A stretch of DNA of 64,000 bases from Ecytonucleospora hepatopenaei (Eukaryota > Microsporidia > Enterocytozoonidae): NCBI GenBank assembly GCA_026692725.1, contig JAPMUG010000011.1, positions 5,001 through 69,000 of the forward strand. Reading direction: 5' to 3'. Position 1 is the first letter of the stretch, and each line of letters begins with the position of its first letter. The notes beneath the pieces were generated by a model. The model searched no databases, was not told where the DNA came from, and saw nothing but the letters and a program-made list of their open reading frames with translations. Position numbers and translations under genes: made by a program. Positions 29,060 to 38,192 of this stretch are shown here, piece after piece.

Positions 29060-29403
29060 TTATCAAAGCACTATTTTTTATAAAATATATTTTTATAATC
29101 AAAATTTCAAAAGTATTTTATAATGTATATTATTTTATATACTAAATATTAAATAATGTTGTAAAATATATGATATTTTATATAAATAATAGAAATATTT
29201 ATTATAATTTTATAAATTAATAAATTATAAATTTTATATGTTTTTTGGAGGGTATTTGCATAATAAAAAGAAAATATTTTATTATAAAAAATCTTAATAA
29301 TTTGATTTTTATGGTTTATTTATGTTATTAACTTTTAAGATAGATAAAACTACAAACAAATCTGTTTCATACATTTTTATATAGTTTTACTTTTTTGTTT
29401 CAT
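29060..29403. other. Intergenic AT-rich stretch
   Basis: About 340 bases between divergent genes; no coding or RNA signal seen apart from the TTTTTGTTTCATATG start-site motif at its right end. Confidence 0.5.
29390..29403 (+). promoter_or_regulatory. TTTTTGTTTCAT initiator-like motif
   Basis: Directly precedes the ATG at 29404. A near-identical sequence precedes the ATG at 50023, and a shorter version (TTTTGTCAT) the ATG at 24080. Confidence 0.4.
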
Positions 29404-29709
29404 ATGGCAGAAGAAGAACAGGTTGTTGAGCATTCAAACAAGACAAACATTATAAACAGGATTTTAGCGGTTCTTTTTGCAATAATATTTGTAATAGTAA
29501 TGTTCTTAAGTGTTAGAGCTATAGTACAACACATGAATAATGGATTGATCCATAAGAAAAGCAAGGTAGTTGATCCTAAAAATTTAGAAAGATTTACTTC
29601 AATGGAAGGAGAGGCTAAGTTAGATACAAATAGAATGTCAAAAGAAGAATTTGGAGAACAGTTAAGTAAAAATTACGAACAACACACTGGTAAAAGAATA
29701 GAAAGATAA
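29404..29709 (+). CDS. Single-pass membrane protein, unknown
   Basis: 101 residues from the ATG at 29404. A short acidic N-terminus, one membrane segment at about 20-40 (ILAVLFAIIFVIVMFLSV), and a hydrophilic tail of about 60 residues. The layout matches the next gene, so the two may be relatives. Function unknown. Confidence 0.75.
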   Translation: MAEEEQVVEHSNKTNIINRILAVLFAIIFVIVMFLSVRAIVQHMNNGLIHKKSKVVDPKNLERFTSMEGEAKLDTNRMSKEEFGEQLSKNYEQHTGKRIER

Positions 29710-29896: not shown

Positions 29897-30424
29897 ATGG
29901 CAAGCGAGGAAGCAAACAATACACAAACAGGAAATGATAATGGAAGCTCTAAGAAAATGAAAAACATCATCATGATGGTCATTGGTGGAATAATTATCAT
30001 TGCACTTATAGTTGGAACAGCAGAACTTATAAAAAGACAGTCTAATAATTTAGTAAAGTCAGATGTTCAGGCTCAGCCTAAAAGTGACATGGATTATCTT
30101 TCAAGGGATGAAAAACAACAAATTAAGCTTAATGTAGAAAAGGCAATTGATGATGCTAAACAAGAACAACAATTTAAAAGTGTAAAGCCTTTTGATCTTA
30201 ACAAAAAAGAGCCAGTAAAAAAACCAAGTGAACCACAACCACCTGTCTTTTACTTTAACAACAGAGAAGAAAACAAAAAAGCAGAAGAAGGTAAAAAACA
30301 AGAAAATGGAAATAATGATAGCCAAAAACCATTAGATAAAAATAAAATAAAGGATAAAAAAGAAGAAAATGATCAAAAGAAAGAAGAATCTTCATCAAAT
30401 GAAACTAAAAATGATAAAAAATAA
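29897..30424 (+). CDS. Single-pass membrane protein with charged tail, unknown
   Basis: 175 residues. One membrane segment at about 23-43 (IIMMVIGGIIIIALIVG), then a Lys/Glu/Pro-rich tail with KKPSEPQPPVFYF and a run of KKEEN-type repeats. It resembles the preceding gene in layout and in the QSNNLVKS/MNNGLIHK stretch after the membrane segment. Function unknown. Confidence 0.75.
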   Translation: MASEEANNTQTGNDNGSSKKMKNIIMMVIGGIIIIALIVGTAELIKRQSNNLVKSDVQAQPKSDMDYLSRDEKQQIKLNVEKAIDDAKQEQQFKSVKPFDLNKKEPVKKPSEPQPPVFYFNNREENKKAEEGKKQENGNNDSQKPLDKNKIKDKKEENDQKKEESSSNETKNDKK

Positions 30425-30523: not shown

Positions 30524-31069
30524 ATGTTTTACACGTTTTATTTTTTAATCAGTATTTTTATATTTAAATGTGCTCATAACCCAAATATGTATGTAAGAAA
30601 TAATTTAGAAGAACATAAAGACAATGAAAATAAGGAATATCCTACAGATTACATATATTTTTATAATAAAAAATTTGATTTTTATTTTACGTCTGATTGT
30701 TTTAAAAATCAAGAAAAAATCAATTTTGGAGTAGATCTTATTTTTATAGGAACAAAAATAAAAAGCGAAGAAATTTTAAAAACAACAATAATATTTGAAA
30801 ACTATGCGAGATTCCAAGGAACAGTAGAATTAATACAAAGAAAAACAGGTAAAAAAGAGTTCAGACCACACAAAATTTTAATGAAAGGTATCATACCAAA
30901 AGGGACCATTACACTTTCTTTTGAATGGCTTTTGGCAAACAGCATGGAGTATTTGTTAAAATTAAAAGATGATAAAGACAATTCTACTAGTATATCATAT
31001 CTTTCTTTTAAAAAAATATGTGATCAAAAATTCGAGTATGCTCCAGCTAAAAATTTTGCTGAAATTTGA
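30524..31069 (+). CDS. Secreted Kre9/Knh1-like beta-sandwich protein, array member 1
   Basis: 181 residues from the first ATG at 30524, with a clear signal peptide (MFYTFYFLISIFIFKCAH). The C-terminal 100 residues have the array pattern: GTVELIQR, then KGTITLSFEW, then MEYLLKL and ISYLSF. This order resembles the Ig-like domain of fungal Kre9/Knh1 cell-wall proteins and Ser/Thr-rich GPI proteins. Relationship to the next genes is seen in the sequence; the fungal link is inferred. A spore-wall or surface role is plausible but unproved. Confidence 0.75.
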   Translation: MFYTFYFLISIFIFKCAHNPNMYVRNNLEEHKDNENKEYPTDYIYFYNKKFDFYFTSDCFKNQEKINFGVDLIFIGTKIKSEEILKTTIIFENYARFQGTVELIQRKTGKKEFRPHKILMKGIIPKGTITLSFEWLLANSMEYLLKLKDDKDNSTSISYLSFKKICDQKFEYAPAKNFAEI

Positions 31070-31361
31070 CTTTTATTTGTTCATATAGTCTTATAATTTG
31101 AGTATAAAACAATATATAATTATATACAATAATTAATTTTTTAATTTTTAAGATTTAAATGATTGCATATTATGTTTATAAATTATTACATTAATTATAT
31201 AAATAAATTCTAAGAACAATATTTATAAACAGAATATATTTTAATAAAATCTATGTATTCTTAAACTATAAAATTTCAGGGTATAAAATTATTATAGTGA
31301 TCATATTCTTTATATTTATATCAATAAATAAGATTTTATACTTATGTTTTGATTGAATTAA
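31070..31361. other. Spacer in the secreted array
   Basis: About 290 bases of AT-rich sequence between array members 1 and 2; no gene seen. AGGGTATAAAATT near 31280 is the only less AT-rich patch. Confidence 0.4.
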
Positions 31362-31916
31362 ATAAAAATTTGTGTTCTTTTTTTATTTTTATATTTTAAT
31401 AAATTGATATTATTAAACAACCTTATTGGCTGTGCAGGAAATCCACAGACTGGGAAAAAAGATAAGCTTGAAGAAAAGGATAGCACCACAAGTAATGAAT
31501 ACACTGATACATTTTGCGGTTTTAAAACACATAAGTATGATAATCTACTAATGACACCATACTTTATGAAAAAAGTTAATGAAAAGGAGCTCAAAACTCA
31601 TTTTATTTTATTAGAGACAAATAAATCTACAGGTGGAGAAGATCTAACATCAATAATGTTTATAATTTCTAAAAAATTTAAAGGGAAAGTTGAGCTGGTT
31701 AAAAGAAATGAAAATACAGGTGATTTTGAAAAGGTAAAGAGAGTTATGTGGAATTTTGTTCCAAAGGGAACAATTAACATTACATTACCATGGCAATTAG
31801 AAAAAAATACAGAGTATTTTTTAAGAATCACTGAAGATGAAAGAAAACTTATCATTTACTCTTCAAAGTATTTTTTGATTAGAGAAGATGGTGTAGTTGA
31901 AAGGGGATCAATATAA
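31362..31916 (+). CDS. Secreted Kre9/Knh1-like protein, array member 2, no ATG start
   Basis: The domain is intact: GKVELVKR, KGTINITLPWQLE, TEYFLRI, then YSSKYFLI. Reading back in frame gives a normal-looking signal peptide (CVLFLFLYFNKLILLNN, ending GCAG), but it begins at ATA (31362) after a stop at 31359. There is no ATG before 31551. TTG at 31404 would cut the signal peptide in half. Either a non-ATG start is used, an ATG was lost to an ATA change, or there is a sequence error. About 184 residues from 31362. Confidence 0.6.
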   Translation: MKICVLFLFLYFNKLILLNNLIGCAGNPQTGKKDKLEEKDSTTSNEYTDTFCGFKTHKYDNLLMTPYFMKKVNEKELKTHFILLETNKSTGGEDLTSIMFIISKKFKGKVELVKRNENTGDFEKVKRVMWNFVPKGTINITLPWQLEKNTEYFLRITEDERKLIIYSSKYFLIREDGVVERGSI

Positions 31917-32001
31917 AATTGATTTATATATTTTATTTTTAAATTTAAAAAATAAAAATTTTTTAATCTTTTTACTCCTTGGAAATCTTTTACTTCTCCT
32001 T

Positions 32002-32520
32002 ATGATATTTTATATTTTGTACTTTATTTTTATAAATTTTATTATATGTGCAGAAAGCATGGATATAAATGAACAAAATATATCAGAAAAGAAAGACAGT
32101 TCATCAAGTGAAGAATATTATGACGTAAAAGATTATGCATTAGGCAATAATATAAAACTAATTTCATACATTCCAAATTTAATAAAGAGAATAGACAAAA
32201 CAGATTTAGGAGTAGAATTAATTTGTATGGAAATAAATACAAAACCAGACAAAACAAAAACAGTTGTTATGATTTTTGAATTTTATACTGATTTTTCAGG
32301 TGATGTAGATTTGGTTGAAAGAAACCCCTATAAATATACATTTGAAAAACACAAAACAATAATAACAGGTGAAATAAAAAGAGGAACATACACAGTAACA
32401 TTTCCATTTGATTTAGAAGAAAAAATGGAGTATTCACTAAAAGTTAAAAATACTTCCTCTCTTATAACTTATAAATACATTGGTAACAGTACATTTAATA
32501 TTGGAAAAACAATAAAATAA
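32002..32520 (+). CDS. Secreted Kre9/Knh1-like protein, array member 3
   Basis: 172 residues from the ATG at 32002, which gives a signal peptide (MIFYILYFIFINFIICAES); the frame is open further upstream, but without a better start. The domain has GDVDLVER, RGTYTVTFPFDLE, MEYSLKV and YIGNSTFNI. It is the clearest match to the fungal pattern of glycine-containing turn, strand, acidic-aromatic strand and final Phe strand. Confidence 0.78.
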   Translation: MIFYILYFIFINFIICAESMDINEQNISEKKDSSSSEEYYDVKDYALGNNIKLISYIPNLIKRIDKTDLGVELICMEINTKPDKTKTVVMIFEFYTDFSGDVDLVERNPYKYTFEKHKTIITGEIKRGTYTVTFPFDLEEKMEYSLKVKNTSSLITYKYIGNSTFNIGKTIK

Positions 32521-32693
32521 GTTTTATGATTGATTTTTGACATATAATGACAAAAACTTAAAATTTGATATTATTGTTAAAAATATATGTTTTACATTAT
32601 ATATTTCAAATATTAATAAATACAAACTATTGGAAAATAAAAAATTTTTTGATCAATATTTTTTGTTTTTAAATAAATTTTTACCATTTATTT

Positions 32694-33347
32694 ATGATTG
32701 CATTTATTATAATAAGTTTTTTATCATTAGTCAGTACAGTATGTGGAAACAGTAATGCACATATTACTAGTTTAGGATCTTTTACAAAAGTTGAAGATAA
32801 ATTCACCAAATATTCAAAATACAAAAAAATTAACTTTACCTTTATGGAAAAGATTTTTAATAAAACGAATGAATATAAAATCGTTTTTAAACTTTTAATA
32901 AATGAAAAAGTTTCAGTATTTTTAGTAAAAAAATCAAAAGAAGATACTGAATATAAAAAATGTAAGTATATTGGAGATAATTTTGTTTCCAAGAATTTCA
33001 TTACTAAAACTGTATTATTAGAAAATATTCAAGATGGGGATAAATTTAAAATTTTAATTCGTTATACTAATAATAATGTTAGTATTTATTCAGATGTCTA
33101 TTTTGTTTATAATGAAAATACAGAGTCTATTTCAGAAAGTGATAATTTAGAAACTATTTTATCTGATAATTTAGAGAATGAAAATTTAGAGACTGTAGAA
33201 GAGAAAGAAACGTTTTATGATATTGCAAATGAAGCTTTAGAAACAATGCAAAAGAAAGTTGATGATGTTTTAAATTTATATTCTGATGATGAAACATATG
33301 ATAGTAAAAAAGAAGAAATTTCATTAACTAAAAAGAAAGATGATTAA
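32694..33347 (+). CDS. Secreted protein, array member 4 (divergent, acidic tail)
   Basis: 217 residues. Signal peptide MIAFIIISFLSLVSTVCG. The middle (VSVFLVKKS, then ITKTVLLENI, FKILIRYTNNN and SDVYFVY) follows the array pattern but is more diverged. A 75-residue acidic, helical tail follows with repeated NLE motifs. Family membership is inferred from pattern and position. Confidence 0.7.
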   Translation: MIAFIIISFLSLVSTVCGNSNAHITSLGSFTKVEDKFTKYSKYKKINFTFMEKIFNKTNEYKIVFKLLINEKVSVFLVKKSKEDTEYKKCKYIGDNFVSKNFITKTVLLENIQDGDKFKILIRYTNNNVSIYSDVYFVYNENTESISESDNLETILSDNLENENLETVEEKETFYDIANEALETMQKKVDDVLNLYSDDETYDSKKEEISLTKKKDD

Positions 33348-33446
33348 TTAAAATAAATTAATAAAATTATACTCATCAAATAAAAATAATTTTATATTTT
33401 ATATTTATTGTTTTTAAATTAAAACATCAAAATTTTAATCACCCTT

Positions 33447-33944
33447 ATGATAAATGTTTTATTGATCATTTTATGTTTATTTCAAAATAGTATTGCAAGT
33501 GATTATACATATAAACCATTGATTGATTTATATCCAGGAATAACTTCATTTAGTTTTACAAACATTCAAAATATTCAAATGATTAAACAAAATCATTCTT
33601 TATGTATTGCTGAATATAATAAAAAAAGTAATTATAGTGATATTACAATAATCATTAACAAAATGAAGGAAGGAAATCTGTTTCTCATTAGAAAAGAAGA
33701 AAACAACACATGGAAATTTGTTATGGCATTAGGTAAAGGTAGTTTTATACCAGGGTCATATACATTTAAAATACAAAATTATATAGAAGATGATAAAAAA
33801 CATAAAGTAATGTTTAGAAAACTAAATAAAACAACAGGACAGAAATATTCATGTAATAGTTTTAATAATAAAAAAGTAGGGAAAGTTAAAAATAAAATTA
33901 GAAATAACATAAAAGTAGAAGGACTTCCACCATTAGAAGGGTAA
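33447..33944 (+). CDS. Secreted protein, array member 5
   Basis: 165 residues. Signal peptide MINVLLIILCLFQNSIAS. The domain has GNLFLIRK, GSFIPGSYTFKI, HKVMFRK and a final YSCNSF. The tail is basic. CACCC lies immediately before the ATG, so expression is likely. Confidence 0.72.
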   Translation: MINVLLIILCLFQNSIASDYTYKPLIDLYPGITSFSFTNIQNIQMIKQNHSLCIAEYNKKSNYSDITIIINKMKEGNLFLIRKEENNTWKFVMALGKGSFIPGSYTFKIQNYIEDDKKHKVMFRKLNKTTGQKYSCNSFNNKKVGKVKNKIRNNIKVEGLPPLEG

Positions 33945-33985
33945 TAATATAATATAAAAAAATTTATAATTTAACCTTATTTTTT

Positions 33986-34107
33986 ATTGATATATTTATT
34001 GATATATTTTATATTTTTATTGATAGATATATAGATATATTTTATATTTTTATTGATATATTTTATATTTTTTATTTTTATTGATATATTTTATATTTTT
34101 TATTGAT
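33986..34107. repeat. AT-rich imperfect tandem repeat (TTATTGATATATTTTATATT)
   Basis: Five to six imperfect copies of a roughly 20-base unit fill the spacer before array member 6. Confidence 0.75.
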
Positions 34108-34794
34108 ATGAATATGTTTATATTATTAATTAATTGTTCATTTATATTTAATATATTTAAAAGTCAATATACACTAGTAGAACAACAATTAGAATTAATA
34201 AAAATAGTAAAAAATACAAATATAAACAAATATGAAGTACATTGGAAAGATAAAAATGTAGCAGATATGGCAGAAAGTGTGGTATTAGAAAGATATACAT
34301 TTCCAAAAAGTAACAGTATACAAAACATAAAAAACATTAGTAATGATACAAATATACATAATAGTAATGATACAAATATACATAATAGTAATGATACAAA
34401 TATACATAATAGTAATGATATAAAAGATAATACTAAATATAATATAAATTTAGAAAGTATGGAAGAAATGTTAAATACTAAAACAAATGATACATGTAAT
34501 AGCAATAAAAGTAATAATATATTTAAAACATTATTTAGTAAAAAAACAAAAGATAATACATCAAATATATTTAAAAATATAAATAATATAAACAATACAA
34601 GTAATACAAATATAAAATATAATTCATATGGTAAATGGATATTATTTGAAAATCTATTAAACTCAATAACATCATATGATAATTTACATACAAGAATAAA
34701 TACACATGTATCACTAGTAGATGAAATATATCATGGATATACATACAGAATAAAAGCAGATGATCATATATCAAATATATTATATATAGTATAA
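34108..34794 (+). CDS. Secreted protein, array member 6, with NDTNIHNS repeats
   Basis: 228 residues from the ATG at 34108 (a second ATG lies two codons on). Signal peptide MNMFILLINCSFIFNIF. VVLERYTF and the C-terminal GKWILFENLLNSI, then HGYTYRIKADDH match the ends of the array domain. Between them a low-complexity Asn-rich insert contains three exact copies of an eight-residue repeat. Codons are almost all A/T. Membership is inferred. Confidence 0.62.
   Translation: MNMFILLINCSFIFNIFKSQYTLVEQQLELIKIVKNTNINKYEVHWKDKNVADMAESVVLERYTFPKSNSIQNIKNISNDTNIHNSNDTNIHNSNDTNIHNSNDIKDNTKYNINLESMEEMLNTKTNDTCNSNKSNNIFKTLFSKKTKDNTSNIFKNINNINNTSNTNIKYNSYGKWILFENLLNSITSYDNLHTRINTHVSLVDEIYHGYTYRIKADDHISNILYIV
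34339..34419 (+). repeat. 24-bp coding tandem repeat
   Basis: Three perfect 24-base copies and a 9-base partial fourth, in frame, encoding SNDTNIHN-type octapeptides in array member 6. Confidence 0.95.
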
Positions 34795-34983
34795 ATATAA
34801 AATAAATTATATAAAATGTAATATTAAATAAATATTTATTAATTCTATCTATATTACATTTTAAATATTATATATTATATAAATAATTATTATTTAACCT
34901 TAATTAATTATAAAAAACATTGATAATAAAACAATAAAATATATCTATATTATAAAACATTAAGAATATATTTATATTATAAT

Positions 34984-35736
34984 ATGTTAATAAGTTATAT
35001 ATCAATTATATATAATACTGATAATATACATTATTATGATGATTGTTATATAGATGATATAATAAATATAACATCTAATAATAACACTATTCTATATGAT
35101 AATAACACTATTCTATATGATAATAATAATATATTATATGATAGTATATTACAAACAGGACCACTTAATTTATCAATAAAAGATAATACTAATAATATAA
35201 ATATATTAGACAATATACATAATAGTATAATAAGTGATAATGATAATAATAGTATAATAAGTGATAATGGTACTAATAGTAATTATTTATTTGATAATGA
35301 TAATATTGATAAATTAAAAAAGAAAATAAGAAAGGAATGTAAAGAAAGATTAACATATAATAATAATTATAATAATAATGTTACATTATCTAATACTATA
35401 TCTGACAATATATCTGATAATAATAGTAGTAATATTATATCTATTATATATAATAATACTAATAATATAATACATATAAATATATCAATAAACAATATAG
35501 ATATATTAAATAGTATAATTATATTAGAAGGATTCAATACATTAGAATATATCAATAATATAAATAATGCGTATAAAAATAAGTTATATAAACAAATAAA
35601 TATAACACATGTATATGGTAATATATATACATTAAGTATAAGTGTAAATAAAGAAGTATATAAGTATTATAGAATAAAGATAATAAGAGAGGATATAGTA
35701 GAATATACAAATATAAAGAGTATAACATATATATAA
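34984..35736 (+). CDS. Asn/Ile-rich protein, probable array member 7
   Basis: 250 residues. The N-terminus (MLISYISIIYNTDNI) is only weakly like a signal peptide. The first 150 residues are Asn/Asp/Ile low complexity. The last 100, with SIIILEGFN, then INITHVYGNIYTLSI and YKYYRIKIIRED, follow the strand order of the array domain. It may be a real but eroded member. Nearly all codons are A/T only. Confidence 0.5.
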   Translation: MLISYISIIYNTDNIHYYDDCYIDDIINITSNNNTILYDNNTILYDNNNILYDSILQTGPLNLSIKDNTNNINILDNIHNSIISDNDNNSIISDNGTNSNYLFDNDNIDKLKKKIRKECKERLTYNNNYNNNVTLSNTISDNISDNNSSNIISIIYNNTNNIIHINISINNIDILNSIIILEGFNTLEYINNINNAYKNKLYKQINITHVYGNIYTLSISVNKEVYKYYRIKIIREDIVEYTNIKSITYI

Positions 35737-35820
35737 CAGTATAACAGTATAACATATATATATAATAAATATTTTATACCCTATAAAAATAACAGTATAA
35801 CAGTATAATAATATATATAT

Positions 35821-37509
35821 ATGTCATATGTTATATTACATGTTATAATTACTAATGATAATAATGAATATTTTATAGCTAATAATACATATAATAATAT
35901 AAATTATAAAATATATAAAACAATAAATAATACATATAATACATATAATGTTAAATATATTAATAATCATACATTTATATTAAATAATAAATATTATATA
36001 ACATATGATAATAATATATTATATAATGATAATAATATATTACATAATAATACTAATATATTACATAATGATAATATAATTAGTATTGATAAAGATACAT
36101 CTAATTGGTTATGTGATATATCTAATACATATGCACCATATATAGTATTAATAAAATCAATATCAGAACCAATAAAATATAATAATACATATAATACATA
36201 TAATACATATAATAAATATAATACATATAATACATATAATAATACATATAATAAATATAATACTAATAATACATATAATGATAATATGTATATTATATAT
36301 ATTGATATATATGATACTACTAAAACAATAAAAATGAGTGTAATATATAATATAGAAGAATATAAAGAAATAAAAGTAGATAGGATATATATGATAAAAG
36401 GAATAAAGAATAATACATATAATAATACAAATAACAGTAATATAAATTATACTAATATAAATAATACATATAATACCAATTATATATGTAATAATATAAA
36501 TGATATAATATATATTAATATAGATTATAATATAAAATGTAAATATATTAATAATATATATAATAATATAAACATATATAATACAATATCATTTATAGGT
36601 ATAATATTAAATAGAGAGAGTAATAGTAATACTAATATATGTAATACATATAATACATATAATACTAATTATAAATATACTATTAAATATAATGATAATA
36701 GAATTATATTATATACTAATAACATATATGTAATAGGTAATACATATACATTTATAAACATAATAGTATTACATATAGATGAATATTATAGGAAGATATG
36801 TAATATAGATAATAAGAGTATAATAAAGAAATATAATATACATATAAAAGAGAATGATGATAATATACATAATATAGATATAGATGATAATAGTATTATT
36901 AACAATAAAATAGATTATAATAGTAATATTAAAAATAATATTATTAATGATATATATAAAATAAAAGAAAATAATAAATATAATAATAAATATAATAATA
37001 AATATAACAATAAATATAATAATAAATATAATTTTATAGATAGTAGTAGTGATAATAATACCAATAAATCTAATAATACTAATACATTATCAAATAATAG
37101 TAATAATACCAATACATTATCTAATAATACTAATACATTATGTAATAATAGTAAAATACAAATAAATATAAAAAGAAGAAAAGATAATAATACTAATATA
37201 ACATATAATGATAATACTAATATAACATATAATAATAGTTATGATAATATATATAATTACCATAATATGTTTAAACTACTCTCTATCAATGGTATTGATT
37301 ATACCTGTGAATGTGGTAGTATATATGCTTACTTGCATATGAGTGATGGATATACCTATGAAATACATTATAGACTGTTACGTATATTAGAAGAATATAA
37401 CATAGTAAGATATAATATAGTAGATACAGGTATAGAAATATTATATAAGATAGAGAATAATAGAATAGTAGGAATTATGGTAGATAAGAATATATTATAT
37501 TATAAATAA
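35821..37509 (+). CDS. Asn/Tyr-rich OB-fold protein, possibly RPA1-like
   Basis: 562 residues, full of NNTYNTYN repeats encoded by ATA/AAT/TAT runs. Conserved-looking islands remain: YIVLIKSISEPI, then YIIYIDIYDTTKTIKMSVIY and VDRIYMIKGIK near 155-200, NDIIYINIDYNIKCKYI with ISFIGIIL near 225-260, and a final 90-residue block with YTCECGSIYAY. Their order recalls the tandem single-strand-binding OB folds of replication protein A large subunit. The full zinc ribbon is not seen. A tentative assignment only. Confidence 0.45.
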   Translation: MSYVILHVIITNDNNEYFIANNTYNNINYKIYKTINNTYNTYNVKYINNHTFILNNKYYITYDNNILYNDNNILHNNTNILHNDNIISIDKDTSNWLCDISNTYAPYIVLIKSISEPIKYNNTYNTYNTYNKYNTYNTYNNTYNKYNTNNTYNDNMYIIYIDIYDTTKTIKMSVIYNIEEYKEIKVDRIYMIKGIKNNTYNNTNNSNINYTNINNTYNTNYICNNINDIIYINIDYNIKCKYINNIYNNINIYNTISFIGIILNRESNSNTNICNTYNTYNTNYKYTIKYNDNRIILYTNNIYVIGNTYTFINIIVLHIDEYYRKICNIDNKSIIKKYNIHIKENDDNIHNIDIDDNSIINNKIDYNSNIKNNIINDIYKIKENNKYNNKYNNKYNNKYNNKYNFIDSSSDNNTNKSNNTNTLSNNSNNTNTLSNNTNTLCNNSKIQINIKRRKDNNTNITYNDNTNITYNNSYDNIYNYHNMFKLLSINGIDYTCECGSIYAYLHMSDGYTYEIHYRLLRILEEYNIVRYNIVDTGIEILYKIENNRIVGIMVDKNILYYK

Positions 37510-37595: not shown

Positions 37596-38192
37596 ATGCT
37601 AATTAGTCCTATTAAAGGTTATAAATGCATTAAAATTAGATATGGTAATATTGCCAATGTTAATGGAAATGACATTGAGAGGAAGAGTGGATTGACTCAT
37701 GAGTGGATGCTATTTGTTGTTGCACCTGTTGGATTTATTAAGTCAGTTACATTTAAATTACATGAATCATTTTTAAATAATACAATAACAGTAACAAGGG
37801 ATAATATAAATATAAATAATACATTAAGTAATACTAATAATACTAATAATAATACATTAAGTAACACTAATAATATAAATAACAGTAAAGATATGTTTGA
37901 TGAATTTACGTTAAAACAAAAGGGATGGGGTGAATTTACTGTACAGCTTAAAATAACCTTATTTAACAATGACAAACTTACTACCAGCCACTACTTGCAG
38001 CTACATGAAAATAAAAAAGTGGATGTCATTAACAGCACTCTCATCAGTGAGAAAGTAGACACTGTTTTCTATAAGGGTAAATATACACCTGCTAACATAC
38101 TTAATACTAAATATGCTAATGAGCAGGATGAATATAAGAGGATAGATAAATGTATAGATTATGTATTGGATCAAATAGATAAGTATTTATAA
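37596..38192 (+). CDS. YAF9: YEATS domain protein (YAF9/GAS41-like)
   Basis: Reader of acylated histone lysines; YAF9-type members sit in the SWR1 and NuA4 complexes. 198 residues. THEWMLFVVAPVGFIKSVTF, KLHESF and KGWGEFTVQLKITLF are the YEATS core. An Asn/Thr-rich insert of about 30 residues, with AT-only codons, splits the domain at about 68-97. The C-terminal 70 residues are helical. YAF9 is the simplest choice; other YEATS proteins are possible. Confidence 0.8.
   Translation: MLISPIKGYKCIKIRYGNIANVNGNDIERKSGLTHEWMLFVVAPVGFIKSVTFKLHESFLNNTITVTRDNININNTLSNTNNTNNNTLSNTNNINNSKDMFDEFTLKQKGWGEFTVQLKITLFNNDKLTTSHYLQLHENKKVDVINSTLISEKVDTVFYKGKYTPANILNTKYANEQDEYKRIDKCIDYVLDQIDKYL

Follow-up and report, generated by a model that had tools for sequence, protein, structure and literature searches.

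A probable five-gene tandem array of predicted secreted proteins distantly akin to the Kre9/KNH domain in Ecytonucleospora hepatopenaei

Seven consecutive open reading frames (ORFs) of 165-250 codons, designated M1 to M7, span positions 30524-35736 on the plus strand of a 64,000-nucleotide stretch of DNA (the window) from the microsporidian Ecytonucleospora hepatopenaei, as confirmed from the ORF list and the coordinates. Contig C2, one of 13 in a genome of 3.09 Mb, contains the window. Five of these genes, M1-M5, together with a dispersed gene found by whole-genome and profile searches on contig C5 (EHP00_1324; G000:C5:188209-188742), seem to encode proteins that share an immunoglobulin (Ig)-like fold with a distant relationship to the Kre9/KNH domain of fungi, as judged by profile comparisons and structure models. 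A sequence-only reading had described all seven as one family of secreted proteins with a Kre9/Knh1-like beta-sandwich. Sequence comparison supports an array that is real but smaller than claimed, probably five genes plus one dispersed relative, in which M1-M3 are certain members and M4 and M5 probable ones; M6 and M7 score at the level of shuffled sequences. The proposed sandwich is the best-supported part of the earlier interpretation: ranking by an external profile supports it as a distant kinship, although the proteins stay below the cut-off of the Pfam family PF10342 and lack PF05390.

Paralogy of M1-M3 and EHP00_1324

M1 (30524..31069, plus strand; 181 amino acids) combines a signal-like N-terminus with one Kre9/KNH-like domain, as does M3 (32002..32520, plus strand; 172 amino acids), whose N-terminus is clearly signal-like; M2 (31404..31916, plus strand) comprises 170 amino acids when read from a TTG at 31404. 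In whole-genome searches, these three proteins match one another at E-values of 1.5e-13 to 1.8e-17. In particular, M1 returned M3 at 1.8e-17 and M2 at 9.2e-14, M2 returned M3 at 3.0e-14 and M1 at 1.5e-13, and M3 returned M1 at 2.6e-17. The sole further location matched was on contig C5, which the M1 search did not reach; the protein encoded there, which is identical to EHP00_1324 of this species, returned M2 at 3.7e-4 and M3 at 5.9e-4 when used as the query. Moreover, a profile of M1-M3 found EHP00_1324 at E 1.6e-10 among 107 ORF entries (the window and the C5 locus, with M2 in two forms), the next ORF following at 0.03. By the measure of sequence similarity, these results demonstrate that M1-M3 and EHP00_1324 are paralogues. 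The motifs attributed to M1-M3 by the sequence-only reading do occur in order, with substitutions, and the invariant columns include G, V, L, and R, then GT, then L, E-Y, and L.

The family is apparently restricted to one lineage, as far as sequence searches reach. Against 5.8 billion proteins, the M1-M3 alignment matched only proteins of its own window (4 of 1181 candidates, E <= 1) and EHP00_1324 matched only itself (1 of 32 candidates, E <= 10); both searches require shared five-residue words, so that distant relatives could escape them. Searches of the genome with M1-M5 and EHP00_1324 give a total of at least six members. None of the 18 families of DNA repeats of at least 30 bases pairs coding parts of two of the genes M1-M5, and thus no recent duplication is visible.

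The sole oddity noted within the array concerns the 5' end of M2, where an in-frame ATG is missing. No in-frame ATG occurs between the preceding in-frame stop and 31551, where the ATG form of the gene begins (31551-31916; 121 amino acids, without the signal-like stretch, which sits upstream of this first in-frame ATG). The segment 31404-31551 is coding-like and, upstream of that ATG, resembles M1 and M3; in-frame stops precede it. Possible explanations are a start codon other than ATG, a 5' arrangement that escaped notice, or damage to the 5' end.

Kinship with the Kre9/KNH domain

PF10342 was first named for these proteins by the earlier reader from the look of the same sequences, with a profile search as the proposed check. 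The outcome was mixed: a Pfam scan gave sub-threshold matches to M2 (E 0.0031, 18.6 bits, residues 91-157) and M3 (E 0.025, 15.8 bits, residues 102-159), which fall in the corresponding region of the two proteins. It gave none at E <= 10 to M1, M4-M7, or EHP00_1324, and the family did not appear in the other 14 of the 16 proteins scanned. A search of the whole genome for PF10342 gave no match at E <= 0.001. 

Three external profiles were tried, all of which are reported here: one of bacterial domains only, one of bacterial and yeast-type domains combined, and one of seven small bacterial proteins. The combined profile consists of 28 bacterial and 12 yeast-type Kre9/KNH domains and includes no microsporidian sequence. 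PF10342 was matched in 106 of 395 genomes of one bacterial phylum (85 over the cut-off) and in 0 of 39 assorted prokaryote genomes. A search of the 395 prokaryote genomes supplied 30 loci, from which L137, open on both strands, and L152, with a cut flank, were left out; the yeast-type set comprises 12 of 15 Kre9 matches, the fragments P0006, P0011, and P0020 being omitted.

The combined profile ranks the six genes above every other ORF among the 107 entries: M3 (E 1.1e-5), M2 (3.5e-4 and 8.7e-4), EHP00_1324 (0.005), M5 (0.088), M4 (0.095), and M1 (0.11), with the next ORF at 0.48. The bacteria-only profile is led by M3 (2.6e-4), M2, M4 (0.019), M5 (0.031), and EHP00_1324; their scores were reached by 0, 3, 6, 6, and 9 of 2000 shuffles, respectively, and that of M1 by 52, shuffles unreported by HMMER being counted as lower. 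The seven-protein bacterial profile places M3, M2, M5, and M4 first, in that order, ahead of unrelated ORFs. When single proteins were compared with the bacterial profile by hhalign, M4 came top, followed by M3, M2, EHP00_1324, and M5; M5 sinks to rank 12 when the combined profile is used. M1 lies outside the best 14 hhalign rows with both profiles, and its P-value alone against the bacterial profile is 0.5. For the alignment of all six members, the bacterial profile gave P 8.3e-5 (probability 61%) and the combined profile P 1.8e-4 (probability 49%). These comparisons support the view that the six genes are distantly akin to the Kre9/KNH domain, though not to be filed as PF10342 members. M1 is the least clear member by profile, yet certain by paralogy.

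Weighing the fold and the membership of M4 and M5

Several results weigh against this interpretation. Both PF10342 matches lie under the gathering cut-off of 24.6 bits, and the E-values of M5, M4, and M1 with the combined profile are only 0.09-0.11; because of these values, the case for the three proteins rests on rank. M1 is weak on the bacteria-only profile, not only by the 52 shuffles but also by its E-value of 0.61, which places it at rank 9 or 10 with two or three non-members equal or higher, and the seven-protein bacterial profile puts M1 at rank 10 and EHP00_1324 at rank 22. Against yeast Kre9 alone, hhalign gave P 0.02-0.05 and a probability of 1-2%; this yardstick was set aside as too narrow. 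Sequence comparison of a five-member profile with the PDB gave no match at E <= 10, and NCBIfam gave chance-level matches only. 

The structure models fall on both sides of the balance, and every fold match is weak. The AlphaFold2 model of M2, built from three sequences, shows a seven-strand beta-sandwich at residues 65-159 (31596..31880, plus strand); its mean predicted local distance difference test score (pLDDT) is 51.5, with ten-residue blocks of 67-83 over residues 81-140 and of 48-58 over residues 61-80. The model of M5 contains an eight-strand sandwich at residues 32-135 (33540..33851, plus strand; mean pLDDT 58.3, low confidence), in which seven of the eight strands match the M2 model in order; the alignment behind it includes the other members, and the topology shared with M2 is not independent. 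A structure check had also been proposed by the sequence-only reading, and its result is divided: the M5 model is Ig/FnIII-like, whereas the M2 model is nearest to MATH and ToxA-like sandwiches rather than to Ig, both at low pLDDT (58 and 52). Foldseek gave no match at E <= 0.001 for either model. It may be asked, then, whether the sandwich is real but unrelated to Kre9/KNH, belonging to a MATH/TRAF or ToxA-like class and resembling Kre9 through convergent strand patterns; we consider this quite unlikely.

M4 (32694..33347, plus strand; 217 amino acids) has a signal-like N-terminus, a probable Kre9/KNH-like domain, and an acidic C-terminal extension, and M5 (33447..33944, plus strand; 165 amino acids) a signal-like N-terminus and a probable Kre9/KNH-like domain. 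Each returned only itself in whole-genome searches. Pairwise comparisons with shuffled sequences single M4 out against no more than two proteins, M2 (0 of 1000 shuffles) and M5 (7 of 1000), and M5 is weak against M2 (19 of 1000) and M3 (28 of 1000). By best pairwise z-score against M1, M2, M3, and EHP00_1324, M4 takes rank 2 and M5 rank 9 relative to 64 other ORFs, and unrelated ORFs attain z-scores of 5.0, 4.6, and 4.1, matching M4 and M5. Since real unrelated ORFs reach similar values, pairwise scores alone do not decide the membership of M4 and M5. An unplanned control points the same way. Only 1 of 997 scored shuffles reached what residues 440-562, at the end of M8 (the gene that follows M7), scored under one of four settings; the other three settings gave counts of 22, 67, and 27 of approx. 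1000. Pairwise shuffle statistics were thus rejected as sole proof, and the external Kre9/KNH profile is the better decider as a sequence test.

These scores leave room for a family limited to M1-M3 and EHP00_1324, with M4 and M5 as unrelated secreted neighbours, and the profile of these four members favours such a reading for M5, whose score was reached by 389 of 988 scored shuffles. It is nevertheless unlikely. The external profiles, built without any family member, rank M4 and M5 with the others; the score of M4 against the four-member profile was reached by 2 of 1000 shuffles, falling to 0 of 1000 when M5 was added, and that of M5 by 6 of 999 when M4 was added. Moreover, M2 residues 61-162 align to M4 residues 42-142 through the whole domain with few gaps, and size, signal-like start, and position agree. 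Sequence and models together make the membership of M4 and M5 probable.

M6, M7, and the AT-rich block

M6 (34108..34794, plus strand; 228 amino acids) and M7 (34984..35736, plus strand; 250 amino acids) are rich in asparagine (Asn), and M6 has a signal-like start. The sequence-only reading held that M4-M7 follow the same strand order as M1-M3, only more loosely; alignment, model, and profile make this probable for M4 and M5, and shuffle-level scores speak against it for M6 and M7. Asn-rich insertions might mask two further members, so that the array would have seven. M6 and M7 are adjacent to the family and on the same strand, and their ends show a similar strand order by eye. Their mutual likeness was reached by 1 of 1000 shuffles and the weak one of M4 and M6 by 30 of 1000, scores that shared Asn-richness could yield. 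With the combined profile, M6 is the third non-member (E 0.81), and by hhalign M7 stands just below the family with a score of 16.3, the same as that of an unrelated ORF. However, against the family profiles, both whole proteins and their Asn-poor pieces (two of M6, one of M7) score at shuffle level, and the same holds for the whole proteins against the bacterial Kre9/KNH profile, where 1458 (M6) and 1461 (M7) of 2000 shuffles reach their scores. Their pairwise z-scores rank 59 (M6) and 22 (M7) among the 64 other ORFs. A seven-member array is therefore very improbable, and M6 and M7 were rejected as members after the whole-protein, piecewise, pairwise-rank, and external-profile tests.

The supposed erosion of the array toward the right is better read as an array that ends at M5 and is followed by a very AT-rich, Asn-rich block. 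The region 34000-37500, which holds M6, M7, and M8, has 11-18% GC, sharply unlike its neighbours; third-position GC is 6-7% in this block vs. 12-22% in M1-M5, and its proteins contain 19-25% Asn. The lengths of M6 and M7 (228 and 250 amino acids) happen to coincide with those given for EhSWP1 and EhSWP7 in PMC8874471, but the isoelectric points differ (computed values of 7.1 and 4.8 here vs. 8.45 and 5.28).

Secretion and hallmarks of wall proteins

N-termini were examined by a plain hydropathy scan (best 11-residue mean, mark 2.0), not by SignalP, and the signal peptides of the family rest on hydropathy only, a further point on the side of doubt. M1, M3, M4, M5, and M6 reach the mark, in agreement with the claim of at least five signal-like starts; M2 (1.75), EHP00_1324 (1.8), and M7 (1.45) stay below it. 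Among the 56 window ORFs of at least 120 amino acids, 13 pass, including M1 and M3-M6. 

The sequence-only reading had also likened the proteins to Ser/Thr-rich glycosylphosphatidylinositol (GPI) cell-wall proteins, and here it does not hold. M1-M5 contain just 11-17% Ser plus Thr and show no GPI-type hydrophobic C-terminal tail, the best C-terminal 15-residue hydropathy mean being <=0.29. PF05390 was found at E <= 10 neither in the scanned window proteins nor in EHP00_1324; 11 of the 15 Kre9 reference matches carry both PF10342 and PF05390. As they lack a hydrophobic C-terminus, Ser/Thr-richness, and PF05390, M1-M5 are, on sequence criteria, neither GPI wall proteins nor complete Kre9/Knh1 proteins.

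Possible function

M1-M5 and EHP00_1324 may be small, secreted proteins of one domain that serve as binding modules where parasite and host meet and that arose by local duplication; we give this proposal about an even chance. An N-terminal signal peptide, predicted from hydropathy, would direct each protein into the secretory pathway. The mature part would join a short, charged linker to a single Ig/FnIII-type sandwich of seven strands, which is distantly related to the N-terminal domain of Kre9/KNH. Since neither a transmembrane segment nor a GPI tail or enzyme domain was recognised, binding would be their mode of action: whether released to the parasite surface or retained there, the proteins might contact a host or parasite glycan or protein through divergent loops. 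The five neighbours would have originated by local duplication and since diverged to approx. 30% identity and below. The membership of M4 and M5 and the type of fold are supported by the comparisons above; secretion, binding activity, and a site at the host interface are what we infer from them. The proposal fits the properties of host-exposed proteins of Nematocida as described in part of PMC5423893, namely targeting signals, clade-specificity, and adjacent family members.

The main rival to a role at the host interface is one in the spore coat: the same secreted sandwich proteins would be structural or matrix components built in during sporogony, with no action on the host. Secreted parasite proteins can be deposited in the wall. 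In sections of two published sources, Kre9/Knh1 appears as one of the fungal cell-wall families (PMC10406608) and is associated with the synthesis of beta-1,6-glucan (PMC7389562). However, Table 2 of PMC8874471 lists 15 high-abundance proteins of the spore surface of this species (228-592 amino acids), and M1-M5 (165-217 amino acids) match none of them in length; these 15 are part of the 130 in that source, and M1-M5 may be present at lower abundance. In addition, a passage of the review PMC7389562 states that glucans are absent from Microsporidia; thus, a Kre9-like wall role would need another polymer, and a Kre9-like glucan-building role for this family is, on general grounds, unlikely. Overall, a coat role is somewhat unlikely, and we prefer the host-interface proposal.

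A more speculative extension of that proposal is that an Ig-type Kre9/KNH module was turned into a secreted, host-facing binding array with diversified loops, and that its source may be a bacterial single-domain lipoprotein. A bacterial source, rather than an inherited fungal Kre9, is suggested because small bacterial proteins share the architecture and because hhalign favours the bacterial profile over yeast Kre9 alone. Against it, the better hhalign match could simply reflect the larger size and greater diversity of the bacterial set, and adding yeast domains to the bacterial profile raises the scores of M3, M2, EHP00_1324, and M1, lowering those of M4 and M5. We regard this scenario as a long shot.

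Comparison with known systems

The likeness to PF10342, as in yeast Kre9, lies in the sub-threshold Pfam matches of M2 and M3, in the external profile ranks, and in the succession of the final strands, which runs from a Gly through a strand that ends close to Phe/Pro and a Leu turn to a Tyr-x-(I/L)-(K/R/Q)-(I/V) strand. The family differs from it in staying below the cut-off, in the lack of PF05390, in short proteins, in tandem arrangement, and in being encoded by a microsporidian genome. The architecture is shared by the small bacterial proteins of L135, L138, L141, L142, L146, L149, and L153 (frames of 134-154 amino acids), which have the same hydrophobic start, short linker, and single Kre9/KNH domain; unlike the microsporidian proteins, they exceed the Pfam cut-off and are lipoprotein-like by eye, with a Cys in the hydrophobic start.

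Among microsporidian systems, NemLGF and other large host-exposed families likewise have signal-peptide-like starts, no relatives recovered from other species, and adjacent paralogues, according to part of PMC5423893. By the definition given there, such families have at least 10 members per genome; six were found here in the parasite's own genome, and a fold can be proposed for them. The ricin-B-lectin-like clusters of microsporidia, as presented in portions of PMC3749934, are likewise tandem duplicates with a binding-module fold, some of them shown to be secreted, but they are beta-trefoil lectins of unrelated fold that are conserved broadly in the phylum. Passages of PMC10406608, PMC2409186, and PMC7389562 report no Kre9/KNH domain in a microsporidian. 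If the kinship is true, the present family would place a Kre9/KNH-type domain in Microsporidia. E. hepatopenaei stunts farmed shrimp, and 71 of the 130 spore-surface proteins of this species are uncharacterized in the data given in part of PMC8874471. A family with a predicted binding module, comprising five neighbours and one dispersed copy, offers concrete targets for localisation, detection, and binding assays.

Neighbouring genes and further observations

The array is preceded by two short genes (29395-29709 and 29897-30424), each with one hydrophobic segment by eye. Directly after M7 lies M8 (35821-37509), parts of which resemble by eye the oligonucleotide/oligosaccharide-binding (OB) folds of the replication protein A large subunit; a piece of M8 gave only a chance-level OB-fold match (PF01336, E 0.16), and comparison of M8 with the PDB gave no match at E <= 10. 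M8 is followed by a YEATS-domain gene (37596-38192), identified by the Pfam scan.

Beside EHP00_1324, on the minus strand, two adjacent secreted-looking paralogues (L005:4875-5771 and L005:6734-7459; E 1.1e-14) encode proteins with a C-terminal membrane segment by eye. The hydrophobic N-terminal stretches of M1-M4 and of these two proteins, a set that includes unrelated proteins, end in Cys followed by Ala/Gly, again by eye. Such an ending may be customary for the signal peptides of this species.

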